Source of the DNA: a virus
Length of the DNA stretch: 64,000 nt
Strand: one strand, 5' to 3'
Virus record (IMG/VR): IMGVR_UViG_3300037808_001962
Location: 1 to 64,000 of that record
Shown: in pieces, positions 35,900 to 58,309 of the stretch
How positions within the stretch are numbered: position 1 is the stretch's first letter
Layout of the letters: each line of letters begins with the position of its first letter
Translations under genes and position numbers: made by a program
The notes under the pieces: generated by a model
The model's database searches: none
What the model saw: only the letters and a program-made list of their open reading frames with translations
Told to the model about the DNA's origin: nothing

Positions 35900-36243
35900 T
35901 TAACTCCTCCAATGTTTTTTCTTTGTATATCTGAATGATTTAATTCTGTCCAATACATTTCATAACAAATAGTATCTTCTAAAGCCTCAAAAAAATGATT
36001 TAAGTCTGGCTTAACTATAGTTAAGTCACCCTCTAATAAAATAGTATCATCTCTAAGGTCATAATCTTTTTGATAGACAGATACTCTTAGTACCCCCTGT
36101 TCAATAAAAAAAGCATTGAATTTATACTTATGGCTATGGGTGGAACAAAAACCCCCCTTTTTAACCTCTATACGGTGAACCTCGAAATTGGGCTTTTGGA
36201 GTATAGATCTAGTAGTTCCCCAAACTTTACCCTGTAATTGCAT
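35896..36243 (-). CDS. Single-domain cupin, probably sugar-related
   Basis: 115 residues. Cupin motif 1 is THSHKYKFNAFFIEQG (two His, with Asn where Glu is common), motif 2 is KPDLNHFFEAL. It overlaps the KdsA gene by 17 bases, so it is probably translated with it. Small cupins next to sugar-acid genes are often isomerases, epimerases or sugar-binding regulators. Exact reaction unknown. Confidence 0.7.
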   Translation of the reverse strand: MQLQGKVWGTTRSILQKPNFEVHRIEVKKGGFCSTHSHKYKFNAFFIEQGVLRVSVYQKDYDLRDDTILLEGDLTIVKPDLNHFFEALEDTICYEMYWTELNHSDIQRKNIGGVK

Positions 36244-42199: not shown

Positions 42200-42770
42200 A
42201 GGAGAATTTTCTATTTTCTAGCCTTCTTTTACCTAAAGATTGTAAATGTCCCCCTCTATCCTGTAATATATCTCTTAGACCGAATAATAACTTCTTTTGC
42301 TTGGTCATAGCTTCAAGTCTATCCTGATAATCATTAAATTCTTTAGCATGTTCGGGGGTTATTAATATTTTATTCTCAATCTCCTGTTTAGTAATTGAAC
42401 CGAACCAACTATTTGGGACATTATCTTCTTCTCGAATAGTTTTTCTTTCATGCATAATAGTTCGTCTAACCTCTTCAGTTAGGTTCCCATACCATGTGGT
42501 AAACTCTCTATTAACTTTTGCCATTTTTGATTCTATTTCAGCCCCTGCAGCTAAAAAGGTAAATCTATAATATGAGCATTGATCTAAAGCCGTATCTAAA
42601 GCCTCATCAGTTAAATCGTCTAAACTTTCAACTTCAAAAGCTAATAATCCATCAACCGCTTTTTTAAAAACCTTACCATTGATTTCAAATTGTATCTTAA
42701 AAAAACGGGGATCAATAAACTCCTCTTTATCATAAGAAAGCTTCTTTTTATTTGTTTGTCCTAGTTTCAT
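42174..42770 (-). CDS. Candidate recombination mediator (UvsY-like layout)
   Basis: 198 residues. A helical protein with REFTTWYGNL in the middle and a C-terminal helix pair (EFNDYQDRLEAMTKQKKLLF, then LRDILQDRGGHLQSLG), the layout seen in phage recombination mediators of the UvsY type. Location between polymerase and SSB/RecA agrees. No firm sequence signature; assignment tentative. Start overlaps the polymerase stop by one base. Confidence 0.4.
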   Translation of the reverse strand: MKLGQTNKKKLSYDKEEFIDPRFFKIQFEINGKVFKKAVDGLLAFEVESLDDLTDEALDTALDQCSYYRFTFLAAGAEIESKMAKVNREFTTWYGNLTEEVRRTIMHERKTIREEDNVPNSWFGSITKQEIENKILITPEHAKEFNDYQDRLEAMTKQKKLLFGLRDILQDRGGHLQSLGKRRLENRKFSFGVQDRGQ

Positions 42771-45208: not shown

Positions 45209-45446
45209 ATTCAGTTCCTTCAAAAATTTCTCTCTCTTTATAGAGTCGAAAAATATCTTGTTTTAATAGATGGGCTTCATCTCTAATTTTTTTTAAATTC
45301 CTTTTAGACCTAATTCCCGCCCGTTTATTTCCCCTTTTATAGAATTTAAGTAAATCCTCTTTATTATTTTCAAGTTCCTCTAACCATTGGTCTATAGAGC
45401 CTCTGGCCTCCTCTAGGCTTGATTTTAGTTCTTCATAATTATACAT
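45159..45446 (-). CDS. Histone H1-like (Hc1 type) protein 2
   Basis: 95 residues, helical and charged. The stretch FYKRGNKRAGIRSKRNLKKI matches the Hc1-like pattern (KGNKaAGtRaRKxLxeL) seen also in the 63-residue protein at 41447. It overlaps the polymerase start by 50 bases and the deaminase by 8. A second copy in one genome suggests distinct roles in DNA packaging or host nucleoid takeover. Confidence 0.6.
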   Translation of the reverse strand: MYNYEELKSSLEEARGSIDQWLEELENNKEDLLKFYKRGNKRAGIRSKRNLKKIRDEAHLLKQDIFRLYKEREIFEGTEFEKDYKRADYTKFTTK

Positions 45447-45873
45447 ATTTAATTTCCTTCATGGTTAAATTTATTTCTTTTATTAATTGAGTATAAGCTG
45501 TACTATCCGCTCCATAAAAATGCTTATAATAGATAGTTGTAACTCCCGCAGCAGCTAATACTTTATAACAATGAGTACAAGGACTATGGGTAATATATGC
45601 AATAATATTCTGATAGCTACGCTCAAGATTTAAAACCGCAGAAATTTCAGCATGTAAGGTTCTTTGACAATGCTTTCCTTCTACTAAACAACCAATATCC
45701 TCACAATGTGGGGTTCCACGGTGAGAGGAATTATACCCAGTGGCTATTATCTTCTTTTGGGAAACTAAAATACACCCTACTCGTAGTCGGGGGCAAGTAC
45801 CCCTTTCGGAGGTTAACTCCGCTAAAGACATAAAGTAGGTATCCCTATTCAGTCGAGTTTTCAATTTCTGCAT
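45439..45873 (-). CDS. dCMP deaminase
   Basis: 144 residues. Zinc motif HAEISAVLN (His and catalytic Glu) and PCTHCYKVL (two Cys), with ATGYNSSHRGTPHC, as in ComEB/T4 dCMP deaminases. It converts dCMP to dUMP, which feeds thymidylate synthesis. In this phage it also competes with enzymes that may modify dCMP. N-terminal overlap of 29 bases with the upstream small gene. Confidence 0.9.
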   Translation of the reverse strand: MQKLKTRLNRDTYFMSLAELTSERGTCPRLRVGCILVSQKKIIATGYNSSHRGTPHCEDIGCLVEGKHCQRTLHAEISAVLNLERSYQNIIAYITHSPCTHCYKVLAAAGVTTIYYKHFYGADSTAYTQLIKEINLTMKEIKYV

Positions 45874-46051: not shown

Positions 46052-47687
46052 TTTTGATTCTCATTTTTACTTTATTTATCTTTTTTACCCATTTCTCCAT
46101 TTTATCTAAATACTTAATATCCCCGGTTTCTTTAAACTTATTTTTAAAAGTCTTTACATCTTCCTTTAAAAAAGATAAATAGGTTTTAGTTAATAAATCA
46201 TTAGAATATTTAGCTAAATCTTTTACATGCTCTAGGGTATAGAGCCGAGTAGCATATTGAGGATTTTCAGCTAGTTGGGGGATAGTTCCTCGATTAGCTT
46301 CACTAATTTGAGCTACTAATTGTTTACCTAGTTTTTTAGTCAAATAGCTATCTAATAATACACAGTCCTTATTATAAGCAGACAATAAAAGCAACTCTTC
46401 CTCTAAGGCTAAACTAATAGATTGAGCTGTAATTACTTCATTTGATAAAGGGGCACTTTTAAACTCTTTCAACCAATGCTCTAAGTGGGGCTCATCAAAC
46501 CCCGATAATTCACTTAACTCCCTCATTGCATAGCTTACTTTAACCTTATTAGAGTAAGAGGCTAATCGCCTAATAGCTCCCTCTACTCCTTCATGCTTAA
46601 AAGCAAATTGAACTAAAGAATTACTATATTTAGAATTTAGTTTGTCCCAATTAAATCGGTGTTTGTATTTAGCACATTCGTCGGGATCTTTCCCCTCTAA
46701 ATATATAATATTTAATTCTATCCCCCTTTGGGCTAATAGTTCTGCAATTCTTAATGAAGCCCCCACTCCCGCACTATCTCCATCACTAAAAATAGTAGCC
46801 CTATTAATTGATTTGCTTAGTAGGCCAGCGGTATTAGCATTAAAATAGCTCCCTGATACTGCTACCGTATTAGTAATTCCTCGTTGGAAAAGTTGTAATA
46901 CATCAAACTGGCCTTCTACTATTATTACCTCCTTAGCCTGAACAATAAATTTGCGATTAAAGTTCCAACCATAGAGTAATTGCTGTTTTTTAAACCAATC
47001 TGAGTCTTTGCTGTTTAAGTATTTAGGTATCTTTTTAGCTATACCCAAGGTTCTACCTGTAAATCCCATAATTTTATCTTGGCTATAGAAAGGGAAAATT
47101 ATTCTATTCTTAAAAAAATCCCTAAAATGCCCTGCATCGGTTTTTAGAATTAGTCCCGCTTTTCTTAGAATATTCTTATTCAAGGTTTGATCGGCTAACC
47201 AGGTCCAAGAATTAGGACTATAACCTAATCCAAATCTTTTAGCGGTCTCTTGGGTAATTCTTCTTTCTCTTAAATTTAGTCTAGCTTTTTCTGATACTTC
47301 ATTCTTAGTAAATAGAGAATTCTGGTATAGGGTAGATACAATTTGGTTCATCTCAAATACGGCTTCAAACCCCTTTTTTTCTTCTTGAGGGGCTAAATCA
47401 GGGCGACCTATTAATTTAGCTAATTTACTTAGGGCTTGTTGATAAGGTATATCCTCATAATATTGTATAAAATTAGCGGCATTTCCTCCCTTTCCACATC
47501 CTGCTCCGAAACACTTAAATATCCCTAGACTCGGAGAAACAGAGAGAGAGGGGTCTGCATCTGTGTGGAAAGGACAAGGGGCTCTATAATTATCCCCCAT
47601 TTTTTCTAGTACTAAGTACTTACTTATAATATCTACAATATCAATATGACCCAGTATTTTTTTAGTTTTTTGACCTAAATTAATCAT
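45999..47687 (-). CDS. DnaG-type primase
   Basis: 562 residues. CHC2 zinc finger: Cys38, His41, Cys59, Cys64. The catalytic core has YSPNSWT and FKNRIIFPFY, followed by TOPRIM signatures EVIIVEGQFDVLQ and IFSDGDSAG. It synthesises RNA primers and probably works with the DnaB-like helicase at 58309. Start overlaps the methyltransferase stop by 8 bases. Confidence 0.92.
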   Translation of the reverse strand: MINLGQKTKKILGHIDIVDIISKYLVLEKMGDNYRAPCPFHTDADPSLSVSPSLGIFKCFGAGCGKGGNAANFIQYYEDIPYQQALSKLAKLIGRPDLAPQEEKKGFEAVFEMNQIVSTLYQNSLFTKNEVSEKARLNLRERRITQETAKRFGLGYSPNSWTWLADQTLNKNILRKAGLILKTDAGHFRDFFKNRIIFPFYSQDKIMGFTGRTLGIAKKIPKYLNSKDSDWFKKQQLLYGWNFNRKFIVQAKEVIIVEGQFDVLQLFQRGITNTVAVSGSYFNANTAGLLSKSINRATIFSDGDSAGVGASLRIAELLAQRGIELNIIYLEGKDPDECAKYKHRFNWDKLNSKYSNSLVQFAFKHEGVEGAIRRLASYSNKVKVSYAMRELSELSGFDEPHLEHWLKEFKSAPLSNEVITAQSISLALEEELLLLSAYNKDCVLLDSYLTKKLGKQLVAQISEANRGTIPQLAENPQYATRLYTLEHVKDLAKYSNDLLTKTYLSFLKEDVKTFKNKFKETGDIKYLDKMEKWVKKINKVKMRIKNGTSKIKNESNSYYKTS

Positions 47688-48657
47688 GCTTATTCTGTTG
47701 TTTAATATAATAGCTAAGGGCGGTACTAATTTGAGGTACTATAGATTTCCCTACTTGGTCAAGTTGACCACTCTCGGTGCCAAAAAAAATAAAATAATCG
47801 GGAAAGCCCATAAGCCTAGCACATTCTCTAACATTTAAAACCCTAGACTCATAGGGATGGACAAATCTAGAACAATGACTAGCTACTACCCCTGAGTGTT
47901 TATCCGGGTCTAGGCGTTTATTATTTTGAGTTCCATAATAAGAGTCTCCTATTTTTAAGCGTCTAAAGCCTTCAATCCTTTTTAAGCTGTGCTTAGGTTT
48001 TTTAGTGTTAGGCTTCCCCACTAGATTATTAAAAGCTTCCTTAATTTTAGACCCTACTTTCCATCGCTCAAATAGGGATATATATGCGGACTCTTTTAAG
48101 GTTTTTAGATCAAATTGAGGTAAAAAATGTTTGCTACCAATTACAAATACTCTTTTCCTGCTCTGGGGTACTCCAAAATCCAAAGCATTTAATTTCACGG
48201 TTTGAATATTATAGTGCTCCATTACAAGGGCTACATCATTACTCCCAGAAAATCTTAAAGCATTACCTTCAAACCATAGGGTTTTTAAAACATTTGGTAC
48301 ATTTTCTAGAATAAAATTATCAGGCTTAGCCTCTAATACAAACTTGAGGAATATAAAGTAATCAAAAGCTTCAATATCCAACTTATGTAATTTCCCCCTA
48401 TCTCTCCTTTTAGTACCTAAATTGCTAAATTGTTTACAATCAGGACTACCAATAAGGAGATTAGTATGGGCAGCGGGGGCATCAAAGACTGAAGAGTGAT
48501 GGACAGCTCCAGGGAAATTATGATTAAAGGTTTCTATATTAAAAAAAGCCCTAGATTCTATATTGAAGTCAACCTTATATCCTGCTCTTTTTGCTCCCAA
48601 TAGGGCCCCGCCAATTCCCCCATAAAGAGCACCTACTGTAGGAGTTAATTTTTCCAT
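47680..48657 (-). CDS. C5-cytosine DNA methyltransferase
   Basis: 325 residues with motif I (ALYGGIGGALLGAKRAGY), IV (GSPDCKQFSNLG, catalytic Cys; the usual PPC is PDC here), VI (ILENVPNV), VIII (QSRKRVFVIG), IX (RECARLMGFPDYF) and X (GKSIVPQIS). It methylates cytosine at C5 in DNA. If the phage replaces C with a modified base it may act on host or early DNA, or on a subset of sites. Overlap of 13 bases with the thymidylate-synthase-fold gene upstream. Confidence 0.88.
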   Translation of the reverse strand: MEKLTPTVGALYGGIGGALLGAKRAGYKVDFNIESRAFFNIETFNHNFPGAVHHSSVFDAPAAHTNLLIGSPDCKQFSNLGTKRRDRGKLHKLDIEAFDYFIFLKFVLEAKPDNFILENVPNVLKTLWFEGNALRFSGSNDVALVMEHYNIQTVKLNALDFGVPQSRKRVFVIGSKHFLPQFDLKTLKESAYISLFERWKVGSKIKEAFNNLVGKPNTKKPKHSLKRIEGFRRLKIGDSYYGTQNNKRLDPDKHSGVVASHCSRFVHPYESRVLNVRECARLMGFPDYFIFFGTESGQLDQVGKSIVPQISTALSYYIKQQNKHD

Positions 48658-49391
48658 TTTTTCATATCCTGTTTTAGCATTTCAATTTCATTATCAAAAC
48701 AATGTAAAGAACCAATCCACATATTCAAATCCCCCATTTTAAAATAAATGTTAAGTTTAGCCCTAATCCATTGAGCTAATCGAACAGTCATATAAATATC
48801 ATTTTTAAAATGTCTCCTAATATCACAACTTCTAATATGATAAGTAATATTAAGCTTATCTTCTCTTATTAAAAAATGATAACCAAGGGTGCAAGGTACT
48901 CTTTCTTTTCTATCTTTTTGATCTTCGGGATGCCAAACCGAGAAGTAGGCTTGACGAGTTAAAGGATTATCATTTAATCTATCTACTACATCAAGCAAAT
49001 TACCATAATTATAGCGTATGCCTTTTAAACCGGGAGGAGGCCAGTATCGTTCCATATAAGAATGGCTAAACTTAAGGTCCTCGCCTTTTTCTCTAAACCT
49101 TTTATCATCTATTTCAGCTTTATAATAAGGCCAGTTCTTGTATTCATTTCCGGGGTTTAAGGGCTTTCCTCCTACTCGCTCCTGGAAATGGTCCTCAGAC
49201 CAGGGTAAGTCGGGCTGACACTGGAAGGCTAAGCTATTCACCTCTTCGGGCATAGGGGCCTTAAAGAATAAATTATTCACCTCATACATATATAAAGAAG
49301 TTTCTACCGATTGCCAACGACTATCTCTTATAGTTTTACCACTATAATATAAAATATTTATTGCTTGAATTATTTTATCATTAATATTCAT
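48645..49391 (-). CDS. Thymidylate-synthase-fold enzyme, candidate dCMP hydroxymethylase 1
   Basis: 248 residues. RVPCTLGYHF has the nucleophile Cys167 after Pro; 20 residues on comes RSCD (187-190), as in thymidylate synthase (E. coli Cys146 to Arg166). Eight residues after the Asp, where thymidylate synthase has Asn177, this protein has Asp198 (HFKNDIY). In T4 gp42 an Asp here favours dCMP over dUMP. The fold then predicts dCMP hydroxymethylase (or methylase). ATGA overlap with the tiny gene upstream. Confidence 0.75.
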   Translation of the reverse strand: MNINDKIIQAINILYYSGKTIRDSRWQSVETSLYMYEVNNLFFKAPMPEEVNSLAFQCQPDLPWSEDHFQERVGGKPLNPGNEYKNWPYYKAEIDDKRFREKGEDLKFSHSYMERYWPPPGLKGIRYNYGNLLDVVDRLNDNPLTRQAYFSVWHPEDQKDRKERVPCTLGYHFLIREDKLNITYHIRSCDIRRHFKNDIYMTVRLAQWIRAKLNIYFKMGDLNMWIGSLHCFDNEIEMLKQDMKKWKN

Positions 49392-49471
49392 TTAATGGTT
49401 ACCTTATTTTGAACTAGAATACATAAAATAAGTAAGATTAATAATTTTACTGCCATTATTAATAGGGTCAT
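49388..49471 (-). CDS. 27-residue hydrophobic peptide
   Basis: ATG at 49471 overlaps the stop of the MazG-like gene (ATGA), and its TGA overlaps the ATG of the next gene (ATGA). The product MTLLIMAVKLLILLILCILV plus QNKVTIK is a single transmembrane helix. Two perfect 4-base couplings make translation likely. It fills what otherwise is a 76-base gap. Function unknown. Confidence 0.6.
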   Translation of the reverse strand: MTLLIMAVKLLILLILCILVQNKVTIK

Positions 49472-49686
49472 TCCTTGTCCTTCATAAGCTCAATGGTTAA
49501 AAGTTGTGCCGACAAATATACCGCTAAATCAAGGGCCTCTTCTAGGGCCTCCTTAGCCCAAGCCCGAGGGTCGTCTGAAACCATATCCCCCCCATATTTT
49601 ATACTACCCATTTCAAGCCTTTTAGTAATTAATTCAATTATTTTATTATTTAGACTAATCGGCTCTATTTCTACAAGGTTCTTCAT
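49468..49686 (-). CDS. MazG-like NTP pyrophosphohydrolase, candidate dCTPase
   Basis: 72 residues. KRLEMGSIKYGG followed by WAKEALEEALDLAVYLSAQL has the E-x-x-E...D spacing of MazG/all-alpha NTP pyrophosphohydrolases (EExxxD). Directly between two thymidylate-synthase-fold genes, it could hydrolyse dCTP to dCMP as T4 gp56 does, keeping plain cytosine out of DNA. That specificity is inferred. Confidence 0.6.
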   Translation of the reverse strand: MKNLVEIEPISLNNKIIELITKRLEMGSIKYGGDMVSDDPRAWAKEALEEALDLAVYLSAQLLTIELMKDKE

Positions 49687-49691
49687 TCTTT

Positions 49692-50456
49692 CTATTCCCC
49701 CTCTATTAACATATCTATATTTACCCCATCCTCCTCAAAAAGGAGAAGAGTACGAGTAACTACACGTTTAATCCATTGCATCTTCATATCTGCAGGATCT
49801 TTACCTTCAAAAGCCTTCTTCCAACGGACTAAACTTTCTTTGAATTCAGGGTTCCAAGAAGTAATCCCATATTTCCTTAGCATCATAGCAGCGGTAGGAG
49901 CTTGGTGCATATTGATAAAAGTGGAGGTTAAAAAAGTAGAAAACATTATACACTTAACCCTTTCTTCTATAAAGCCCTCTAGCATTTCATATAATAAAAC
50001 AAAGTCCATATAGGTTTTAGGCCATATCTCTGTACTCCTAAAAACAATTAAAGCTTCATAAGTAGTCATGGTAGCTTTCTGTATATAAAAGCTATCTAAG
50101 CACTTTAGCCTATCGGTCCTGTTAAAAGCGGGCTCTGAAAAACTAATCAATCCTCTAGCCTGACGAGGTTGTAAATTTCTAATAGTAGATTTTAAAAGAG
50201 TATGCTGTTTTTGAACTTTTTTAGAAAAATACCCCTCTCTCAATCTATTTAATTTATATTCCCTATTATAGCCTGAATATTTAAAGAAATCTTTTTCCAT
50301 AATATCTTGGTCAAAATGAATACCCTCAGTAAAGCCATATACTCTACGGGCAAACATAGAGGGGTAATAGAAAGAGGACTGTTCTCCCGTAGCGGTATGG
50401 ATCAGTAAATTAAACCAGAGCTCCGTTAGGTTTTTTCCTGTAACTTGAACAAACAT
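49692..50456 (-). CDS. Divergent thymidylate-synthase-fold protein 3
   Basis: 254 residues. LKCLDSFYIQ places Cys119, 21 residues before FRSTE (Arg140, Ser141, Glu143), similar to the Cys-to-Arg spacing of thymidylate synthase, and Asp151 sits 8 residues after Glu143, again where Asn is expected. NMHQAP may correspond to the His/Tyr of the C-terminal H-x-Y. Much more divergent than the other two; it may have a different substrate or be an accessory subunit. Confidence 0.55.
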   Translation of the reverse strand: MFVQVTGKNLTELWFNLLIHTATGEQSSFYYPSMFARRVYGFTEGIHFDQDIMEKDFFKYSGYNREYKLNRLREGYFSKKVQKQHTLLKSTIRNLQPRQARGLISFSEPAFNRTDRLKCLDSFYIQKATMTTYEALIVFRSTEIWPKTYMDFVLLYEMLEGFIEERVKCIMFSTFLTSTFINMHQAPTAAMMLRKYGITSWNPEFKESLVRWKKAFEGKDPADMKMQWIKRVVTRTLLLFEEDGVNIDMLIEGE

Positions 50457-50458
50457 AA

Positions 50459-51037
50459 TTAAAAGGTGTAACCAAGCTTTTTAATATCAGGAGCGTAATA
50501 TTCTTCAACCATCTTTATAGTTTCCTCATCATAATAATCTTTATACCCTTTTTTTTCTTTGTGTTTATTTAGGTAGGGCAAAGGGAAATATTCTAGTTTT
50601 AGCCTAAGTAGTACTTTTTTCCAGTCTTCCTCTAAATTTTCAAATCTATAGACGGTTTGTACATGATCAGACCAATCTGTTTGTAAATCAACACCCAGGC
50701 CTGATTCCTTCCACCATCGGTGCCTAGCCCTAACCATATCTGCGGGACAAGTAAAAGGCTTAAACCATTCAACCAATGAGGCGGGTAATCGGGGATCCGT
50801 TATACCGGCCTTTAATTGAAAAAACTGAGATACTTGCCAATCCCACGGATTCCTTACAAAAGTAAAGCGCCAAAATTCACCATTGACTAGTCGGGGATGT
50901 ATTAGAGGCGTAGAATGTACGGGGGGCTGGGGATGAAAAGCGGCATAAGGGGCCAATCCAGAGGTAATACTTTTTCCTGCAGTATTTTGAATATGGAAAA
51001 AAATAAAGTCTATATTATTAACTCTACCAACAATCAT
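50459..51037 (-). CDS. Sulfotransferase-family protein
   Basis: 192 residues. FFHIQNTAGKSI (residues 13-24) aligns with the 5'-phosphosulfate loop (FIHIPKTAGTSI), though PK is replaced by QN and Lys moves to the GKS position. FTFVRNPWDWQVSQF (residues 58-72) is the 3'-phosphate-binding RxxPxxxxxS motif. YRFENLEEDW and the end YYAPDIKKLGYTF are typical of carbohydrate sulfotransferases using PAPS. The Lys shift raises the question of activity. Adjacent to a glycosyltransferase (4-base overlap), it may sulfate a sugar. Confidence 0.78.
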   Translation of the reverse strand: MIVGRVNNIDFIFFHIQNTAGKSITSGLAPYAAFHPQPPVHSTPLIHPRLVNGEFWRFTFVRNPWDWQVSQFFQLKAGITDPRLPASLVEWFKPFTCPADMVRARHRWWKESGLGVDLQTDWSDHVQTVYRFENLEEDWKKVLLRLKLEYFPLPYLNKHKEKKGYKDYYDEETIKMVEEYYAPDIKKLGYTF

Positions 51038-51843
51038 TTAATTATTTCCTTTAATAAAGCTTTATAGCTCACTGCTTGTTTATAAAACCAGGCTTTTTCA
51101 TCTTTAAAATTATCCAAAAACAGTAATTGATTTATGGCTAATTGGTGTGCATCCTTAATAGAGCCCGTAGCTTTAAACCAGCCCTTTCCCGCGGGATTGA
51201 ACATTCGAAAGAAATAGGAGCCATTCTCTAGCCTTAATAGTTCATCAGTTGAATTATAAGCCTTTAGTTTATTAAAAACCCCCGAATGGTGCTGGCCTAA
51301 GAGGTTAATATGTTGACTTTCTAAACTAAATCCATAAGTACCCCCCATAAATATACCTCCCTCTTGTTTATTCTCAACTACTTTTCCACACTCTATATAT
51401 TCTAATTGATTAGAAAGAGAGGAGGGAGTAGGAGACTGGTAATAAGTAGAAAAATCAGGGGCAATATATTGACAATCCCAACAAAGAGCCTTATGTTTTT
51501 TGACTAAAGCCTCTGCTCTAATGAGGGGGAAGAGGGCGGGATTTACCCAATCATCATCATCGAATTGAACAATAAAACTATTTGATGGGTCATTACTTAG
51601 ATCCTTAAGTAGGGGCCTATCCAACCAACTAATAATACCATCACAGTCCCAAGTTTCAATCCCTGTAAAAGAGATAGCAGTCATACGATGTCTAACCTCT
51701 TCCCAAGGGAGGGTAAAACAACTGCTCCAATCTTTCAATATCTTGTTAATAAACCTGTCTCTATTATAGACGGGCTCATCTGGGAAAGCATACATATTCC
51801 TGTAATATGCTCTAGTCCGATTAAAAACTACAAATATCCTCAT
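51034..51843 (-). CDS. Glycosyltransferase paired with sulfotransferase
   Basis: 269 residues. SFIVQFDDDDWVNP provides the Asp-rich metal site of a GT-A fold, with a preceding helix and a later NGSYFFRMFNP. The pattern resembles rhamnosyltransferase-like or GT2-like phage enzymes. It shares a 4-base overlap with the sulfotransferase gene downstream, so the two probably act on the same glycan. Confidence 0.65.
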   Translation of the reverse strand: MRIFVVFNRTRAYYRNMYAFPDEPVYNRDRFINKILKDWSSCFTLPWEEVRHRMTAISFTGIETWDCDGIISWLDRPLLKDLSNDPSNSFIVQFDDDDWVNPALFPLIRAEALVKKHKALCWDCQYIAPDFSTYYQSPTPSSLSNQLEYIECGKVVENKQEGGIFMGGTYGFSLESQHINLLGQHHSGVFNKLKAYNSTDELLRLENGSYFFRMFNPAGKGWFKATGSIKDAHQLAINQLLFLDNFKDEKAWFYKQAVSYKALLKEIIK

Positions 51844-51851
51844 ATTATGGA

Positions 51852-52322
51852 CTATCTAACCCCTGTTGAGCCGAATCCCGCTTCTCCTCGACTCGTACCA
51901 GATAATTCTTTGACCTCTATAGGCTGTCCCGCCCATATAGGGATAAGGAGTAATTGAGCTATCTTTTCTCCTTTAGGGATAATTACCTCAACGTCTGAAT
52001 GATTGAATAGGTGTATGTGTATTTCTCCTCTATAACTAGAATCAATAACTTCAGCCCCTTTATCTAGCTTCATCCTAGTCGCTCTACCCGATTTATTAAA
52101 AACTAGTAAAGCATGCGTAGGGGGGAACTCACAAGCTAGCCCTAGTCCTGTTTTAGCATCGGACCTTTTACCAATTACTACCCTTTCAGTAGTGTAAACA
52201 TCCATACCGGCATCCCCCTCGTGGGCTCTAGTGGGTATTTTTGCATCAATATGCAGTTTTTTAAAGCCCAGAAAAGTGTCTGAGACTTTAGCTTCAAGTT
52301 TTACTTCTTTTTTTAGCTCCAT
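51852..52322 (-). CDS. dut: dUTPase
   Basis: 156 residues with all five trimeric dUTPase motifs: DAGMDVYT, NKSGRATR, EVIDSSYRGEIHIHLFN, KIAQLLLIPI and RGEAGFGSTG. It hydrolyses dUTP to dUMP, limiting uracil in DNA and supplying dUMP. It complements the UDG domain of the polymerase. Confidence 0.94.
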   Translation of the reverse strand: MELKKEVKLEAKVSDTFLGFKKLHIDAKIPTRAHEGDAGMDVYTTERVVIGKRSDAKTGLGLACEFPPTHALLVFNKSGRATRMKLDKGAEVIDSSYRGEIHIHLFNHSDVEVIIPKGEKIAQLLLIPIWAGQPIEVKELSGTSRGEAGFGSTGVR

Positions 52323-52734
52323 TCTTATGCTCCTTTATCATCTGTTTATTAATCCTCCCTAAATCTTGTAAAATACTATTAAAAGTATAATGGAAGAGGT
52401 GGGTTAAAATCTCATCATTGTCCTTCCCTAAGGGTATTCCTACTTTAGTTAAGGTATTAATTGCGTAATGTATAATTTCATGTCCTAGTATTGCTATATC
52501 ATTACTATCTAAGGGATTATATTTTTCTAGCCATATATAATGTTTGTAGCTATTCTCGGGGGAGGCATGAAAAGCACTACACCATTCCGGAAAAATAAAA
52601 TAATTACCGGGGTGTCTCCTATTCAAATCAGCCTCTAAAGAGATCTTATCTGTACCTACAAAAAGAGCCAGAGTAGAACCAAAGATCGGCTCTGAACAGG
52701 TAACGGTTATTGCTTCACTCATATTTAATCCCAT
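52294..52734 (-). CDS. Small HExxH zinc-metalloprotease-like protein
   Basis: 146 residues. AILGHEIIHYAINTL includes HEIIH, a zinc-binding HExxH, followed by GKDNDEILTHLFHYTF, a pattern shared by a group of small phage proteins of unknown substrate. It overlaps dut by 29 bases. Catalytic function plausible but untested. Confidence 0.6.
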   Translation of the reverse strand: MGLNMSEAITVTCSEPIFGSTLALFVGTDKISLEADLNRRHPGNYFIFPEWCSAFHASPENSYKHYIWLEKYNPLDSNDIAILGHEIIHYAINTLTKVGIPLGKDNDEILTHLFHYTFNSILQDLGRINKQMIKEHKNGAKKRSKT

Positions 52735-53291
52735 AGGGTAAAGAGGTGTTTTCCAAGAAGACTAAAAGCGCGCTTAGACTTTTTCTCAAGTAGTTTAATA
52801 TTATCTTTATCTAAGATACTAAGAGTAGACAGAGTTTGAGCAGCCTCTAGTCCTTCTATCATTTCATCTAAAATTAAGTTAAATCTCTTATTCCCTCTTA
52901 TTATACCACCCTTTGTAGCGATACCCTCTTTATCTAGGTCCCTAGTTTTAAACATAGAACAAGGTACCCCATGTTTATTAGCCCTTAGCCAATGTAATTG
53001 GGGGATTATTGTATCTAGCAGCCAGCTCCCAGTATCCCAATTATCCATATAGGAATATCCGTATCTAGCCCTTTGATACCAGTGTTTAAATTTGCCTGGA
53101 CGTATTCTTTCCCATATTGTCCATACAAAAAACCGATAAAGGGGGTAATAGAGCCAATCTTCCCACCTTGCTATAAGCCAACCGCGTTGAGCTTTGTGAT
53201 CATCCATCATTTCTTCTAAATGGTCATAACAAAAAGCCTCGCCTTCAGTCTTTATACAACCATTATGTTCTTCACTATGTACCCTTTTCAT
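52725..53291 (-). CDS. Conserved phage protein of unknown function
   Basis: 188 residues, Trp- and Tyr-rich. The stretch YGYSYMDNWDTGSWLLDTII followed by PQLHWLRANKHGVP resembles a segment found in many phage hypothetical proteins (R-x-x-G-Y/W-S...W...L...L...G-x-P). No function known to me. It overlaps the next gene by 10 bases. Confidence 0.6.
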   Translation of the reverse strand: MKRVHSEEHNGCIKTEGEAFCYDHLEEMMDDHKAQRGWLIARWEDWLYYPLYRFFVWTIWERIRPGKFKHWYQRARYGYSYMDNWDTGSWLLDTIIPQLHWLRANKHGVPCSMFKTRDLDKEGIATKGGIIRGNKRFNLILDEMIEGLEAAQTLSTLSILDKDNIKLLEKKSKRAFSLLGKHLFTLWD

Positions 53292-53313
53292 TATAATCCT
53301 CCTTTATTATACC

Positions 53314-53844
53314 TCATTTATCAAGCCCCTTTTCCTGGATAAAATTCTTTATTTCCCCAGACCCACTACGAATAGGGAAAGTATTAAGAGTAGTTCGGTC
53401 TAGGTACTTAGTATATCTATACTCTAGGGCCTCTAATTGGGGGAAGTCAATATAGCTATCTCCCCTAAATTCCATTCGTTTTTTAACCTCGGACATGGGA
53501 GCATGTATATATAGTAAAGCATGATCTAGGTCTTTTACTTCCCCCTCTAAGAGATAATAAAAAGGGTCCTCTAAAGCCTCATACCCTCTTTTAATTTTTG
53601 AATAAACTAATTCTGAGGGGAAAAACCGGTCAACTACCAGATTACCATTAAAGGGGGCAACTAGGTCCCTATAGAATTTTAGCATAATATGGTAGGTCTC
53701 TTTTAAAGAGTCAATTGAAGAGGCAGTAGACTGTTTAGGTATATTTAGCTGCTTTAAAAAAAAGCAGTTACTTATATTTTTACTTAAATATTCCCCCACA
53801 TAGGTTTTACCCGCGCAATCAATACCCTCTAAAATAATAAACAT
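53314..53844 (-). CDS. Thymidylate-kinase-like deoxynucleotide kinase
   Basis: 176 residues. P-loop FIILEGIDCAGKT, the DRF motif (VVDRFFPSELVYS) and a lid-like RMEFRG match dTMP kinases, though the chain is short (about 205 usual). It phosphorylates a dNMP to the diphosphate; a modified dCMP is a possible alternative substrate here. One-base overlap with the upstream gene. Confidence 0.8.
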   Translation of the reverse strand: MFIILEGIDCAGKTYVGEYLSKNISNCFFLKQLNIPKQSTASSIDSLKETYHIMLKFYRDLVAPFNGNLVVDRFFPSELVYSKIKRGYEALEDPFYYLLEGEVKDLDHALLYIHAPMSEVKKRMEFRGDSYIDFPQLEALEYRYTKYLDRTTLNTFPIRSGSGEIKNFIQEKGLDK

Positions 53845-54293
53845 TATTTAAGCCTTAGAATCCCATCAGCTAAAATTCCTAATTTATTAGAGTTATTCAA
53901 TTCCCTAAGAACCCTACCTACCCTAGTAGTGGGCTTTTTTCCCGTAACCCCATAACCGTATTCTTCTGAAACTAAATCAACTATTGATTCTTTAGTAAAT
54001 TTACCCTCCTTAATTAGACTCATTATAAATTGTTTTCTAGAAACTTTAGCGGGCTTATTTGAAATTCTAGTTTTTGTTTCTTTGGCCTCCTCTTTGGCTT
54101 CTTTAGTTTTGATAGCTACCTCTTCTAGTGCAACCTGGTAAGCTTCATATACAGCAGTTACCATTTCATCTCTAGTCAAATCCGGATCTATATCAACCCT
54201 TAGCTCTTCTTTAATAACCCCTACTATTTCTTTATTATTAAGTAAAGGGGAATTGATAATATTAGATATATCATCTCTGGTTAGTGCTTGCAT
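53844..54293 (-). CDS. Unknown protein with winged-helix-like C-terminus
   Basis: 149 residues. Helical N-terminus, charged Lys/Glu linker (about 65-80), then SRKQFIMSLIKEGKFTKESI and TRVGRVLRELNNSNKLGIL, which has the helix-turn-strand layout of a winged helix. Might bind DNA or regulate. Not recognised. Confidence 0.5.
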   Translation of the reverse strand: MQALTRDDISNIINSPLLNNKEIVGVIKEELRVDIDPDLTRDEMVTAVYEAYQVALEEVAIKTKEAKEEAKETKTRISNKPAKVSRKQFIMSLIKEGKFTKESIVDLVSEEYGYGVTGKKPTTRVGRVLRELNNSNKLGILADGILRLK

Positions 54294-54306
54294 TTGTTTT
54301 ATCTCC

Positions 54307-54570
54307 TTATTTAAGGTTCTTAATAAATTGGTCTACAAACTCTGTAGACTTTGGCTTTTCTAATTGAGCTAGTTTCCATGCATGGTCTTCAAAAGCTTTT
54401 TTCTCTTTTTTTGGTAGACCATTAACATAATGTTTGATACAGGTGATCACAAACTGTGACCAACTAGAATCAGGAAACTTAGCTGCAGCATATTGTTCAC
54501 AGATCTTTATAAAATTCCTATCATACTTTGGAATATATATAGAAGTGTTCCCATAAGATGCATTAGACAT
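54307..54570 (-). CDS. Small protein of unknown function
   Basis: 87 residues. Begins with a strand (NTSIYIPKYD) followed by two helices, similar to ribbon-helix-helix-type regulators but without a clear signature. Overlaps the helicase end by 8 bases. Confidence 0.45.
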   Translation of the reverse strand: MSNASYGNTSIYIPKYDRNFIKICEQYAAAKFPDSSWSQFVITCIKHYVNGLPKKEKKAFEDHAWKLAQLEKPKSTEFVDQFIKNLK

Positions 54571-56011
54571 AGTTTACCTCCCTTAGTGGTTCTATTTGAA
54601 ATTCTTCTTCTTTTTTATAGGTCCTTAATCGGGCCTTAGAATGCTTTAATAGCATACCGCCATCATTATCATAAAAGTCTATAATCCTAGCATTCTCTTT
54701 ATTTTCAGATTTCCTTAAAGCTCTTCCTACCCTTTGAATCGTTTGTTTATTAGACTTTCCCCCTCCCGCCATAATAATAACATCCATTGAGGGGATATTT
54801 ACCCCCTCATTAACAACGGTACTAATTAGTATCTTTATTGTTTTATTAGAAAAATCCTCTAAAATTTGTTTACGTTCATCAGAGGGAGTCTTTCCAGACA
54901 TAAAAACTGCTTCTTCTATTAAATCATTGAGAATATTACCGTGTTCTTCAACTCGAGTAACTACAATTAATACACTTTTGCCCTTCCGGGAAAATTGCTG
55001 GGCTAAACGAATAATCAGATTATTTCTATAATTATTCTTTAAAATATTTTCCTTATAGGCAATTGGCCAATCACTATAGCGCTGAAGGCAATCAACCTTA
55101 TACACTTCTATTACGGGACGGGTTAATAGCCCTCTTTTTATCAAATTACTACTACTTATATGATGTAAAACTCCTCCCGTAGCAGCAGTCAGTAATTCTC
55201 TCTCTAAGGACCCCTCGTCTCCCGGTGTAGCAGTAAAGCCTATCCTAAAATATGCATCAATTAATTGAGCTATTTGGAAGTAGGTATTTTGAACTTTATT
55301 TTTACCCGCTATATTGATATGATGAGCCTCATCAATTAATAAAGCCTGACAATATTTAGCAACCGTCCGAATAGCAGGGTCTTCACTCTTCAGTCGGGAC
55401 CATAGAGATTGAACAGTAGAAATAGTTACTGTCTGGGGATTAAATTGTTTATCCCCAATAATTCCCACATATTGTTCTCCTAAAAACTTAGTTAATTCTT
55501 CCTCAGTTTGTAACAGTAGATTAATAGTGGGTACAATTACAATAGTGGGTAATAATCCTAATTGCTCTATCAACTTAGCCATTACTATTGTTTTACCTGC
55601 CCCTGTAGCATGATGCACAATCCCCCTACCCCTGCTGATACAGAGCTCAAGAGCCTCATCTTGATAGTCACGTAGGGGAGGAACTAAACTCTCCTTAATT
55701 CGCTCTCTATCAATCGCCGGACGAACTCTTTTATCTTCAAAAGTTACATTATGTTTTAAAGCCTTAAGGTCTTTAAGAAAACCCCCCGTCCAGCCTGAGG
55801 GAAAACGCCCTTGATGATAATAAGAAATCCGATCTTTACATTTTCCTCTACGAGGGGGCCTAACACTCCAATCAGTGCCATAATACTCATATTCTTTAGT
55901 ACACCAGCCCTTTACAAGCCTTAAGTCTTCTTCAGACCCTATAGCTTGGGTATAACAATTATATATTTCTAAATGAATATTCATCATATATGGGGGTTGA
56001 AACCAGTTCAA
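54563..56011 (-). CDS. SF2 DEAH-type helicase (UvsW-like)
   Basis: 482 residues. Q-like LRDYQDEAL, motif I HATGAGKTIV, II LIDEAHH, III GFTATPG, IV-V SVLIVVTRV and STVVNEGVNIP, VI QRVGRALR. The N-terminal 110 residues resemble the small UvsW/RAD25-like substrate domain. It probably remodels recombination or replication forks. Overlaps the sigma gene by 53 bases. Confidence 0.88.
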   Translation of the reverse strand: MNWFQPPYMMNIHLEIYNCYTQAIGSEEDLRLVKGWCTKEYEYYGTDWSVRPPRRGKCKDRISYYHQGRFPSGWTGGFLKDLKALKHNVTFEDKRVRPAIDRERIKESLVPPLRDYQDEALELCISRGRGIVHHATGAGKTIVMAKLIEQLGLLPTIVIVPTINLLLQTEEELTKFLGEQYVGIIGDKQFNPQTVTISTVQSLWSRLKSEDPAIRTVAKYCQALLIDEAHHINIAGKNKVQNTYFQIAQLIDAYFRIGFTATPGDEGSLERELLTAATGGVLHHISSSNLIKRGLLTRPVIEVYKVDCLQRYSDWPIAYKENILKNNYRNNLIIRLAQQFSRKGKSVLIVVTRVEEHGNILNDLIEEAVFMSGKTPSDERKQILEDFSNKTIKILISTVVNEGVNIPSMDVIIMAGGGKSNKQTIQRVGRALRKSENKENARIIDFYDNDGGMLLKHSKARLRTYKKEEEFQIEPLREVNYV

Positions 56012-56609
56012 TCAATCTTTCTATTCTTTGAAAATACTGACTAATAGCCGGTTTTGAAATATTAAGCATTTTACTTATAGTATCTCGACTAATATCGGGA
56101 AAAGCTATCTTTAATTGAAAACACTTTAAAACTCTTAACTCTGTTTTTATTTTAACCTCAACTGCCGCTATTATTTGTTTATAAATTTCTTCTGACCAAG
56201 CATCGGCTATGGGCTGATAACTATCCTGGTGGACTAATTGAGAATAGATAATTTCTTCAATAGTTCTAGCATCCGGTTCCTCTCTAGTTGAGGAATCTAA
56301 ACTAATTTTAGTCCCTAACTTAGAGGAACGGGTTATTTGCCTCAGCTCTTTAATTAATAATTGAGTCATTCTAGTACGTATCCAAGAAAGTACTTTAGCC
56401 CCTCTCTCTTCTTGATAAGAATTTATAGCTTCTAATAGCCCTATTCTAGTAGCTTGAAGAAAATCATCAGTAGTTCTTGCCCCAGAAGGATCAAAGTACT
56501 TGTACGGATCTACCATATTAACTGTTAAAGTCCAAAGCTTATCAAAAACTAGTGAACTCTTAGTCTCTTTATATTCCTTAACCATGCTTAATGCTTCTTG
56601 ATTTGTCAT
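55959..56609 (-). CDS. Phage sigma-70-family factor
   Basis: 216 residues. FLQATRIGLLEAINSYQEER followed by VLSWIRTRMTQLLIKELRQ matches sigma region 2 (D-x-x-Q-x-G-x-x-G-L-x-x-A-x-x-x-F-D-x-x-R-G...). The C-terminus (ISRDTISKMLNISKPAISQY) is a helix-turn-helix like region 4. It probably redirects host RNA polymerase to middle or late phage promoters. It is the first gene after a strong host-type promoter, with AGAGG upstream of ATG. Confidence 0.75.
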   Translation of the reverse strand: MTNQEALSMVKEYKETKSSLVFDKLWTLTVNMVDPYKYFDPSGARTTDDFLQATRIGLLEAINSYQEERGAKVLSWIRTRMTQLLIKELRQITRSSKLGTKISLDSSTREEPDARTIEEIIYSQLVHQDSYQPIADAWSEEIYKQIIAAVEVKIKTELRVLKCFQLKIAFPDISRDTISKMLNISKPAISQYFQRIERLIELVSTPIYDEYSFRNI

Positions 56610-56624
56610 ATTGACCTCTTTTTG

Positions 56625-56695
56625 TTGATTAATGGTGTATTTGACAAATCAAATATAATATTATATTATAATATGATCAAAATACTTTTTTCAAC
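56625..56695 (-). promoter_or_regulatory. Host sigma-70-type promoter for the sigma factor gene
   Basis: On the minus strand upstream of ATG 56609: TTGAAA as -35, 18 bases, then TATAAT as a perfect -10. AT-rich palindromic sequence (AATATAATATTATATT) overlaps the -10 and a near palindrome around TTTGATTTGTCAAA lies just after; these may be operators. This is the only obvious sigma-70 promoter seen in the leftward block. Confidence 0.65.
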
Positions 56696-56700
56696 TTTTT

Positions 56701-57600
56701 TTAATCTCTTGTATTTAAAAAGTTAAACTCCCGATCAACAGGATGTAATTGGATATAATTAACCATATTCCTAATTAGTTTTGAATCAATTCCTGTAGCC
56801 GAAATAGTACTAGATTCATAAAGAATTTTATAGGCTAATTGAAAATCTTCTTCTATATTAGTAGAACGTAACTCAGTTACGGGATGTTCCCATTGGGCCT
56901 CGTTAGCTTTTTCCAACTTATGAATAAGTTTTTCCAAGAAGTTTCTACCCTCTCGCTCCCTTTTCTTTGGATAATACATGTGAGTAGCAAAATGGAAATA
57001 GGACCCCAGCTTTAGCCCTAACTGGTGGGCAACGTATTTTTGAATAAAAGTATGGTGAAAAATATCATAAGGTAAAAGGTTAATTATATCATTAGTTCGC
57101 ATATTAACAAAAAGGTTTAGTTTTTTATCTCTAACTAAAAAGTGGAGAGTAAGGGTACAAGGTCTACGAGGAAACTCATTTTGACCCCAAAGATACATGG
57201 GAGTCCAAACATTCATAATAGCCTCACGTGAGGTTTTTTGCCGCTTCAATTGCTTTACAATCTCGGGAATCTGCTCATTAAAAGCCTCCCCGTAGGCATA
57301 ACAGAAGGTTCCCCCCTCTTTTACTAATTTTCTTCTCCAGGCAGGCCTATATTGATAGGCCAAACCTGGATTTGCGTATTTTGCTGGGTTGTCAAATACT
57401 CCAGACATACGGTCAAACAATTCTTGAAAGCACCATTGCCAATTCTTCTTTTGAAATAGAAGCCCCCGGTTGGGATTTGTCAACTCTAATTGGACCCCCA
57501 TAAGGTCTCTAGTTTTACCCTCAAGGTGTCCCTTAGTTGAAACCCTTTTAATAAGCTCAATATACATTTCCGTTATATTATGTCCCTTAATATATTCCAT
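56701..57600 (-). CDS. Thymidylate-synthase-fold enzyme, candidate dCMP hydroxymethylase 2
   Basis: Start at ATG 57600 is preferred (AAGGGGA upstream); the frame opens at 57618. Numbered from 57618: FPRRPCTLTLHFLVRD has nucleophile Cys154, RTND 174-177 is 20 residues on, and Asp185 (LLPYDIFHH) replaces the discriminating Asn. NVWTP (136-140) and the C-terminal FHFATHMYY (H-x-Y) complete the fold. Predicted to act on dCMP. It lies between kdsB and the sigma gene. Confidence 0.75.
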   Translation of the reverse strand: MEYIKGHNITEMYIELIKRVSTKGHLEGKTRDLMGVQLELTNPNRGLLFQKKNWQWCFQELFDRMSGVFDNPAKYANPGLAYQYRPAWRRKLVKEGGTFCYAYGEAFNEQIPEIVKQLKRQKTSREAIMNVWTPMYLWGQNEFPRRPCTLTLHFLVRDKKLNLFVNMRTNDIINLLPYDIFHHTFIQKYVAHQLGLKLGSYFHFATHMYYPKKREREGRNFLEKLIHKLEKANEAQWEHPVTELRSTNIEEDFQLAYKILYESSTISATGIDSKLIRNMVNYIQLHPVDREFNFLNTRD

Positions 57601-58309
57601 CTTTCTGTCCCCTTTCAACCTCTATAAGGTCTTGAGTAGTATTAATACTAAAACTCTTACCATCAGTTTTAATCATTTTTATATTATAGCCATAGTATAA
57701 GGCCCTTAGTTGTTCTAGATTTTCTATTACTTCAAGAGGAGACCGGGGGAGAGCACAAAATTGACTAAGGCTTTTTGCGGTAAAACCATAAACCCCTAGA
57801 TGTTCCCAACAATGGTATTCTCCATGAGGGACAACTGACCGTGAAAAATATAAAGCCTTGTCATAATGGTTTAATACTACTTTTACCTTAGATGGGTCCT
57901 TTAATCCCTCAGGAGGTAAAGGCTGACAGGCACTTACTAATAGGGTCTCCTGGTCTAAGCCTTGAGGATGATGAGCTATATAGTCTATAATATTGGTAAT
58001 TAAGAGGGGATCAAGATTAAACTCATCCGCTTGTAAATTTATAATAGTCTCATCATCCGGTAACTTTAGTAACCTAGTAGCCTCTGCCACTCTTTCCGTC
58101 CCATTTCGATGATGGGGAGAAGTTAACAAACAATCTATTTCAAACTTTTTTGCTATTTCTTTAACCTCAATACTATCAGTAGCAATACATAATTCACCCA
58201 AGTGTTCTACTTGTTTTGCTACACCAATAACGAGAGGGAGCCCTCTTATCTCTATTAAGGCTTTACCCGGTAATCGGGTTGAATCTAATCTAGCGGGAAT
58301 GATAATCAT
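57587..58309 (-). CDS. kdsB: CMP-Kdo synthetase (3-deoxy-manno-octulosonate cytidylyltransferase)
   Basis: 240 residues. IIIPARLDSTRLPGKAL (nucleotide site), NGTERVAEA, the QADEF segment for the usual QGDEP, ALYFSRSVVPHG and HLGVYGFTAKSLSQF then PLEVIENLEQLRALYYGYNI match KdsB in order. It activates Kdo to CMP-Kdo. QADEF instead of QGDEP is a notable change near the active site. One-base overlap with dnaB. Related activation of other 2-keto acids cannot be excluded. Confidence 0.88.
   Translation of the reverse strand: MIIIPARLDSTRLPGKALIEIRGLPLVIGVAKQVEHLGELCIATDSIEVKEIAKKFEIDCLLTSPHHRNGTERVAEATRLLKLPDDETIINLQADEFNLDPLLITNIIDYIAHHPQGLDQETLLVSACQPLPPEGLKDPSKVKVVLNHYDKALYFSRSVVPHGEYHCWEHLGVYGFTAKSLSQFCALPRSPLEVIENLEQLRALYYGYNIKMIKTDGKSFSINTTQDLIEVERGQKDGIY

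Follow-up and report, generated by a model that had tools for sequence, protein, structure and literature searches.

What would a phage do with three proteins that resemble thymidylate synthase, all of which carry Asp at the position that selects the base? This question is raised by a stretch of DNA that comprises the first 64,000 bases of the 69,256-base IMG/VR virus record IMGVR_UViG_3300037808_001962 (here called the window) and comes from a marine phage. The three open reading frames (ORFs) that a preliminary description of this DNA had placed at 48645, 49692 and 56701 were all found there on the minus strand, and we call their products TS1, TS2 and TS3. On balance, we consider it somewhat probable that TS1 and TS2 form a working pair, which jointly modifies deoxycytidine monophosphate (dCMP) at C5 before this nucleotide is incorporated into DNA. 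The three genes are as follows:

48645 to 49391, minus strand: TS1, a dCMP-type enzyme of the thymidylate synthase fold, 248 amino acids; codon of Cys167 at 48891-48893, codon of Asp198 (thymidylate synthase position 177) at 48798-48800
49692 to 50456, minus strand: TS2, a putative cryptic partner of the thymidylate synthase fold, 254 amino acids; codon of Cys119 at 50100-50102, codon of Asp151 at 50004-50006
56701 to 57600, minus strand: TS3, a third enzyme with Asp at position 177; Cys codon at 57157-57159, Asp codon at 57064-57066; extendable to a TTG at 57618

For TS3, the ATG at 57600 is a likelier start than the TTG at 57618.

TS1 and TS3 carry the residues of cytosine-type synthases

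The preliminary description had ascribed thymidylate synthase features and Asp at position 177 to all three proteins. For TS1 and TS3 this was confirmed by family profiles and by alignment. Both proteins passed PF00303 (47.2 bits for TS1, 57.3 bits for TS3; cut-off 24.3) and matched PHROG thymidylate synthases. When they were aligned with E. coli ThyA, T4 gp42, RB69 ORF048, SPO1 gp29 and two phage relatives, the equivalents of Tyr94, Arg126, Cys146, Arg166, Asp169 and Asp177 (ThyA numbering) were present in both. Over 16 TS1 sequences Cys167, Arg187, Ser188, Asp190, Asp198 and His230 were invariant (numbering of TS1). Asp at position 177 was found in 16/16 TS1 sequences, later in 35/35 rows (two of them duplicated), and in 5/5 TS3 sequences. 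Passages of three papers (PMC8670742, PMC6400193, PMC5175136) connect Asp instead of Asn at this position with cytosine rather than uracil as substrate, and a cytosine substrate is therefore implied for TS1 and TS3.

Further sites were read from the alignment. Position 147, which a passage of PMC8670742 gives as the other site separating modified-cytosine synthases from ordinary ones, is Thr or Ser and not His in the alignment of TS1 and TS3. TS1 combines Ser at position 167 with Arg126, a pair that part of PMC5175136 links with deoxy substrates, and because of this pair TS1 fits the deoxy pattern; TS3 has Thr at 167. The alignment placed no Glu at position 58/60 of either protein, the site of the folate-activating Glu in T4-type hydroxymethylases, but it is unsure in this region and an invariant Glu71 lies nearby in TS1.

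The best PDB profile match of TS1 was 1njc, which is titled L. casei thymidylate synthase N229D with dCMP. The same Asn-to-Asp switch turned this protein into a dCMP methylase according to a title cited in PMC8670742, but N229D is an engineered mutant and an enzyme that acts alone. The best PDB profile match of TS3 was the cytidine monophosphate (CMP) 5-hydroxymethylase MilA. A recent duplication as origin of TS1 and TS3 was ruled out, since they fall into separate clades with 100/99 and 100/100 support; several reference branches of this tree are long, and the joins among the references are unsafe. TS3 is a separate D177 enzyme. The absence of a normal thymidylate synthase, which had also been noted before, held for the whole 69,256-base record: no further PF00303 match and no ThyX were detected in it, although the record is possibly incomplete.

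TS2 probably hides a thymidylate synthase core

Ordinary searches do not recognise TS2. At E 0.1, neither Pfam nor PHROGs nor NCBIfam recognised the window protein, and tblastn against 50,697 phage records was likewise empty at this threshold; among PDB sequences the best hit (E 1.9) was not significant. Twelve viral contigs encode proteins that are 74-77% identical to it, and a profile search for wider relatives in viral contigs returned the same 12 and nothing further. Among six proteins, the profile of the marine TS2s weakly recognised those of Polewnik (E 6e-5) and Opt-155 (E 4e-4), but not those of Muddy and Zuko; Opt-155 gp50 searched against the viral contigs gave nothing useful. The family set used here consists of 21 proteins, and 17 of the 20 others are only 11-21% identical to the window protein, the remaining 3 being 76-78% identical. 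None of the 21 matched PF00303 at E 0.1; the unannotated PHROGs phrog_34294 and phrog_13667 were matched by 10 and 7 of them, respectively.

The preliminary description had called TS2 from residue spacing alone, and this call was upheld by invariant residues, by profile ranking and by structure models of low confidence. Only four columns are invariant in the 21 proteins (Tyr76, Cys119, Arg140, Asp151), and they were still kept in 24/24 after addition of three sequences. In order, they correspond to thymidylate synthase Tyr94, Cys146, Arg166 and residue 177, Tyr76 being equated with Tyr94 by order alone. The spacing from Arg to Asp is 11 in 21/21 proteins, as in thymidylate synthase. At position 169, where TS1 and TS3 have Asp, 15 of the 21 have Glu and the other 6 have Tyr.

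A TS2-family profile was run over 543 non-redundant ORFs. Of the 532 ORFs outside the TS2 family 31 were TS1s, and these occupied 11 of the top 12 ranks (hypergeometric P 4e-14, a value that is overstated since the TS1s are mutually related). In the profile alignments that were read, Cys, Arg and Asp of TS2 were in register with TS1. The scores are weak, with 17.5 bits as best value, where reversed sequences reached 9.2 and shuffled ones 5.5, and hhalign of alignment A1 with A2 or A3 gave nothing useful. The TS1 proteins from contigs without TS2 scored best with this profile; as a suggestion only, this would fit a splitting of TS2 off a TS1-like ancestor. A resemblance by chance was rejected on the invariant residues, the profile ranking and the Arg-to-Asp spacing.

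Structure prediction, which had been proposed as a check of the Asp positions, gave a divided answer for TS2. The best matches were dCMP enzymes, but the two models, built from 10 and 11 sequences, had a mean predicted local distance difference test (pLDDT) score of 61.7 and 63.5, and ribosomal proteins appeared lower in the Foldseek lists. Foldseek returned nothing at E < 0.001, and its best hits were 1b5d (0.058) and 9iqu (0.0024, probability 0.99); the dCMP hydroxylase, dCMP hydroxymethylase and thymidylate synthases were matched best. With VIA-align the best Z was 6.0 (9iqu) for one model and 8.4 (9iqc; 173 residues, root-mean-square deviation 3.7) for the other, values to be read with the program's own caveat that unrelated proteins commonly reach a best Z of 7 to 8; all 50 entries listed per run belonged to the thymidylate synthase superfamily. 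These observations support the conclusion that TS2 keeps the pattern of a thymidylate synthase catalytic core and probably belongs to that fold. Residues and gene pairing are direct sequence observations, and the pockets of TS1, TS2 and TS3 are all predicted to select cytosine.

TS1 and TS2 occur as a pair in named phages

TS1 matched 103 of the 50,697 phage records (E 1e-20). The TS2 family was also found in 103 records (E 1e-3), 18 of them with Opt-155 gp50 and 85 with Muddy gp47 as query. This collection includes duplicates, and 19 of the 80 TS1 accessions listed begin with NC_ (RefSeq, usually copies). Tallies by the first word of the names listed agree between TS1 and TS2 (Gordonia 68, Mycobacterium 9, Serratia 6, Pseudomonas 5, Streptomyces 4, among other names), and 49 of the 58 TS2 accessions listed are also among the 80 for TS1. 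Twenty-four of these 49 were checked, and TS2 lay upstream of TS1 on the same strand in all of them.

Fourteen annotated records, three of which are uncultured or of unstated origin, gave the gene order in more detail; one more record, STP12, has no annotation. All fourteen have TS2 upstream of TS1, a kinase is named further upstream in 12/14, and a dUTPase, nucleoside triphosphate pyrophosphatase or hydrolase is named upstream in 13/14. The order is kinase, dUTPase/pyrophosphatase/hydrolase, TS2, TS1; in some records small genes are interspersed, and the gene ends often overlap or touch. Of the 58 phage rows listed for TS2, 53 bear the annotation 'hypothetical protein'; two depositors label the protein 'pyrimidine hmase synthase'. 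Most TS1 annotations among those listed read thymidylate synthase. In two TS1-TS2 records (MW202455, MW202777) a FAD-dependent thymidylate synthase is annotated as a gene of its own, by which TS1 and TS2 would be freed from making thymidine monophosphate.

Bacterial and archaeal assemblies contained three loci with TS1 relatives. In each of them a gene of the TS2 family lies upstream (E 2e-33 to 3e-66) and retains the four invariant residues. One of these loci (NZDU01000008.1, here L084) is closely related to the window, and its TS2, 90% identical to that of the window, is the closest one seen. The assembly is titled Pacearchaeota archaeon, but judged on gene content the contig looks like a phage contig binned by mistake. 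Over 19 genomes the identity matrices of TS1 and TS2 correlated with r 0.75, a value equalled by 0/2000 shuffles. Among the open-licence papers listed by our searches, judged by titles and abstracts, we found no description of this pair. TS1-TS2 is a two-gene module across phages of many hosts, the TS2 half of which was hardly recognised before. The earlier proposal that several paralogues imply a complex or more than one step agrees with this pairing.

Gene surroundings in the window

The genes between 33 and 61 kb lie mostly on the minus strand and include RecA, a DnaG-type primase and DnaB. The following neighbours bear on nucleotide metabolism or flank the pair:

42770 to 45223, minus strand: DNA polymerase A with an N-terminal uracil-DNA-glycosylase domain (PF00476 335.7 bits, PF03167 95.5 bits)
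45439 to 45873, minus strand: dCMP deaminase (PF00383 75.6 bits; phrog_174)
47680 to 48657, minus strand: C5-cytosine DNA methyltransferase (PF00145 119.8 bits, cut-off 22), overlapping the 3' end of TS1 by 13 bases
49468 to 49686, minus strand: ORF of 72 amino acids between TS2 and TS1, tentatively MazG-like
50459 to 51037, minus strand: sulfotransferase-like protein directly upstream of TS2 (PF03567 below cut-off; phrog_3347 1.8e-14)
51034 to 51843, minus strand: protein of 269 amino acids with a DDDDW stretch and no family match, between the dUTPase and the sulfotransferase-like gene
51852 to 52322, minus strand: dUTPase (PF00692 93.9 bits)
53314 to 53844, minus strand: deoxynucleotide-kinase-like P-loop protein (dNK and thymidylate-kinase Pfam matches below cut-off; phrog_761 thymidylate kinase 9e-16)

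The kinase-like protein has 35-39% identical counterparts in close relatives and is a candidate kinase for the modified dCMP. Fusion of polymerase A with uracil-DNA-glycosylase was thus found in a phage that also has a dUTPase and a dCMP deaminase. The MazG-like label of the 72-residue ORF, on which the preliminary description had relied for a dCTPase-like function, turned out to be weak: the ORF matched 0 Pfam families, and hence no MazG, PRA-PH or dUTPase_2 profile, and only PHROGs of unknown function. A 44% identical ORF lies between TS2 and TS1 in one relative (L019/L016), and the small genes at this place vary across the close phage group. The sulfotransferase-like protein had no blastp match in the relatives' loci. 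The 51034 protein has a 43% identical homologue in L084, between the dUTPase and TS2, and is a possible glycosyltransferase. The methyltransferase gene touches or overlaps TS1 in 5/5 close marine contigs (G003, G004, G005, G007, G009), but not in L048; a C5-methyltransferase is odd company for enzymes that would modify cytosine at C5 beforehand. All five contigs with a close TS3 also carry TS1 and TS2. Two contigs without TS3 (G003, G005) begin just beyond its place, and the remainder are only 4-10 kb long.

Two genes of the window are concerned with sugars in another way. KdsA (36227-37018) and KdsB (57587-58309) both scored above the NCBIfam cut-offs and stand for two steps of Kdo and CMP-Kdo synthesis. 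Among 16 records searched, many of them fragments, both were found only in the window's own record, with KdsB in 0/15 others. The conservation of the TS genes can thus not be due to them. Because both are present, Kdo had been considered as a sugar attached to the modified base, but it was dropped as a candidate for the same reason, a link with a surface or tail glycan being as likely. Both KdsA and KdsB have matches in LR756500 (462 kb) and Synechococcus phage S-SCSM2R of the phage collection, and LR756500 also matches TS3. A cupin-domain protein lies beside KdsA at 35896-36243 (Pfam below cut-off; phrog_7851 cysteine dioxygenase). On the plus strand, genes at 1546-8599 resemble glycosyltransferases and a radical-SAM protein by eye, the first three without PHROG match; a nucleotide-sugar epimerase (6898-7863, phrog_540) lies within this run.

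Points against the pair and alternative explanations

Several observations weigh against the reading of TS1 and TS2 as a working pair, and the first of them come from environmental contigs. When the loci of IMG/VR contigs fetched by TS1 were scanned, a TS2-family ORF was present in 13/37, several of the TS2-less contigs being fragments that start at TS1. Searching whole records, we found TS2 in 9/24, and 8 of these 9 were the window's own record or had also been fetched by TS2 (G016 is the exception); among the records fetched by TS1 alone it was present in 1/16. The TS2-less records include contigs of 78 and 133 kb. One 30.7-kb contig (IMGVR_UViG_3300025102_000009) encodes a TS1 that is 58% identical to that of the window, beside a dCMP deaminase and near a dUTPase; no TS2-family match was found on it. 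The Cys-Arg-Asp pattern was present in 0/16 ORFs, which were mostly located upstream of TS1 in TS2-less environmental contigs and included two comparison ORFs. Environmental pairing is loose, and this speaks against strict dependence. Other points concern the proteins themselves. Both TS2 models are of low confidence, hhalign of the TS2 and TS1 profiles was not significant, and the TS1 profile does not retrieve TS2. Shared ancestry can account for the correlation of the two identity matrices. In place of the Arg that ThyA has at position 127, Gln is present in TS1 and Glu in TS3 (SPO1 gp29 likewise has Gln). The overlapping C5-methyltransferase argues against full C5 substitution of cytosine. 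To our knowledge, the composition of virion DNA is known for no phage of this class.

In the family chemistry that is established for T4 dCMP hydroxymethylase and MilA, the Cys attacks C6, Asp at position 177 holds the cytosine, and a folate one-carbon unit is transferred to C5. The alternative that survives best is that TS1 (and TS3) are hydroxymethylases of the T4 type making 5-hydroxymethyl-dCMP, with TS2 as redundant or auxiliary paralogue. T4 gp42 (6a9a, 1b5d) shares with TS1 the fold, the Cys, Tyr, Arg and Asp177 equivalents, the action on dCMP at the nucleotide level, which is predicted for TS1, and a place in a phage replication region. TS1 has the equivalents of Cys146, Tyr94, Arg166, Asp169, His207 and Asp177; TS3 has MilA as best match; a dCMP deaminase and a kinase-like protein are neighbours; and many environmental records have TS1 and no recognisable TS2. 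What separates the window proteins from these enzymes is the residue three positions before the Cys. It is Asp in T4 gp42, SPO1 gp29, Enterococcus phage nattely, a Manatee Spring phage and MilA, Glu in RB69 ORF048 and Leu in ThyA, but Arg in window TS3 and in 34/35 TS1 rows (two rows being duplicates, and one row having Glu). A passage of PMC6400193 describes this residue of the T4 enzyme, Asp145, as activating the water that becomes the hydroxyl, and reports a significant loss of activity for D145N. The Arg hints that capture of the methylene is not by T4-type water. TS2 pairing in named phages would also be left unexplained, and no TS2-type partner gene is present in the T4 stretch examined. 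We therefore rejected hydroxymethylation as settled product and judge the alternative as a whole unlikely, though with a real share of the probability. MilA (5b6d, 5jnh) is like TS3 in having Asp186 at the 177 position; it differs in its preference for CMP, in serving antibiotic synthesis and in having Ala176/Lys133' where TS1 has Ser/Arg.

For the preliminary description this means that its prediction of C5-modified cytosine stands in part. The cytosine substrate implied by Asp at 177 and the dCMP deaminase, dUTPase and kinase-like genes nearby are in its favour; hydroxymethylation of the T4 type is opposed by the Arg. Its comparison with T4 dCMP hydroxymethylase is not supported for TS2 either, which over 21 sequences has no invariant Glu and no invariant acid other than the Asp at 177. 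Synthases with Asp177 and a changed position 147 were described for modified-cytosine contigs in the MetaGPA study (PMC8670742), a passage of which states that thymidylate synthase domains occur together with those of dCMP deaminase and PRA-PH, in many cases exclusively in modified contigs. These synthases were paired with a carbamoyltransferase, and the passages concerned mention no second cryptic partner of the synthase fold.

Asp at 177 no longer predicts hydroxymethylation, because a dCMP hydroxylase of the same fold exists. The PDB titles of 9iqu and 9iqc give AfhB as dCMP hydroxylase, a riboflavin-dependent monooxygenase with dCMP and flavin adenine dinucleotide (FAD). The letters of RB69 ORF048 match the aligned stretch of 9iqu, and for the phage group of RB69 part of PMC13390438 describes a 5-hydroxy-dCMP synthase of the thymidylate synthase superfamily. 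It might be argued that TS2, or the TS1-TS2 pair, is such a flavin-dependent enzyme and makes 5-hydroxy-dCMP, which is later glycosylated. AfhB of phage HY126 and RB69 ORF048 have the fold and the Asp at 177 and act on dCMP, as is proposed for TS2. Among known structures, TS2 resembles AfhB most (9iqu by Foldseek E 2.4e-3, 9iqc by Z 8.4), and the phage genome also contains a sulfotransferase-like gene and genes for Kdo. But AfhB was solved with FAD, the known proteins have Asn at 169, and structural alignments give 8-12% identity to TS2. The lead in Z of the second, low-confidence model is small (9iqc by 1.0 over T4 hydroxymethylase and by 1.4 over thymidylate synthase; 9iqu by 0.4 and 0.8), and RB69 ORF048 has Glu three positions before the Cys and at 58, where TS2 has no invariant acid. 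We consider this explanation quite improbable.

Another alternative is that TS2 is a catalytically dead structural subunit, which merely stabilises TS1. Its faster divergence (median pairwise identity 15% vs 39% for TS1 in 19 genomes), the lack of an invariant folate-site acid and the occurrence of TS1 without TS2 are consistent with such a role. A nucleophilic Cys, however, need not persist in a dead subunit, and the four residues invariant in 24/24 TS2s fit an active-site Tyr, Cys, Arg and Asp, which makes this role improbable as well. Finally, an ordinary thymidylate synthase with a drifted active site, as the usual TS1 annotation and the lack of another synthase in the record would have it, is very hard to maintain, since the invariant Asp177 is a known switch from deoxyuridine monophosphate to dCMP (passage of PMC8670742) and the two pair-carrying records mentioned above have their own gene with the FAD-dependent annotation.

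Possible mechanism of the pair

Returning to TS1 and TS2 as a working pair, we infer from its residues that TS1 performs the family chemistry and from the pairing in named phages that TS2 shares the work. The two would most likely form a heteromer that originated by duplication. TS1 would bind dCMP via its Cys and Asp and would transfer a one-carbon unit from methylene-tetrahydrofolate to C5. TS2, of which only the Tyr/Cys/Arg/Asp core is invariant, may complete the enzyme or act on a dCMP intermediate. The modified dCMP would be phosphorylated by the neighbouring kinase-like protein and enter DNA via the phage DNA polymerase A, which presumably incorporates the modified nucleotide; dUTPase and dCMP deaminase would shape the nucleotide pools. 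Where TS2 is missing, TS1 would act as homodimer, and TS3 may contribute a second activity.

A more specific version can be offered as a tentative idea, which we think is unlikely to be correct in all its parts. Here the folate-bearing subunit of the heteromer would make 5-methylene-dCMP, and either the folate-free TS2 or the nearly invariant Arg of TS1 three positions before the Cys would see to it that this intermediate is captured by an anionic second substrate and not by water or hydride. A new C5-substituted cytosine might then be present in the DNA of dozens of phages with known sequence, among them the therapeutic mycobacteriophage Muddy.

Implications for phage biology

We know of no earlier case, also after searches of the open-licence literature, in which two unlike subunits of the thymidylate synthase fold act as one enzyme; if true, this would be the first. 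Behind its label 'hypothetical protein', TS2 travels with a cytosine-type synthase in named phages, and the finding is thus broader than the preliminary description had stated. The product of TS1-TS2 is probably a chemically altered cytosine for phage DNA. Should the two proteins work in this way, phages in culture with Gordonia, Mycobacterium, Pseudomonas and Serratia as hosts, Muddy among them, would carry a DNA modification that has gone unnoticed. Cultured carriers of the pair such as Pseudomonas phage PMBT14, Gordonia phage Emalyn and Muddy make the proposal testable. A passage of PMC6884629 reports that Muddy has, in addition, a gene for a QueC-like N-type ATP pyrophosphatase with no assigned role, which could belong to the same modification, and part of PMC11604996 reports that this phage has been used in patients. 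Which of the restriction, CRISPR and modification-dependent nucleases can cut a phage depends on whether its cytosine is modified, and the pair would therefore bear on host range, defence and phage therapy.

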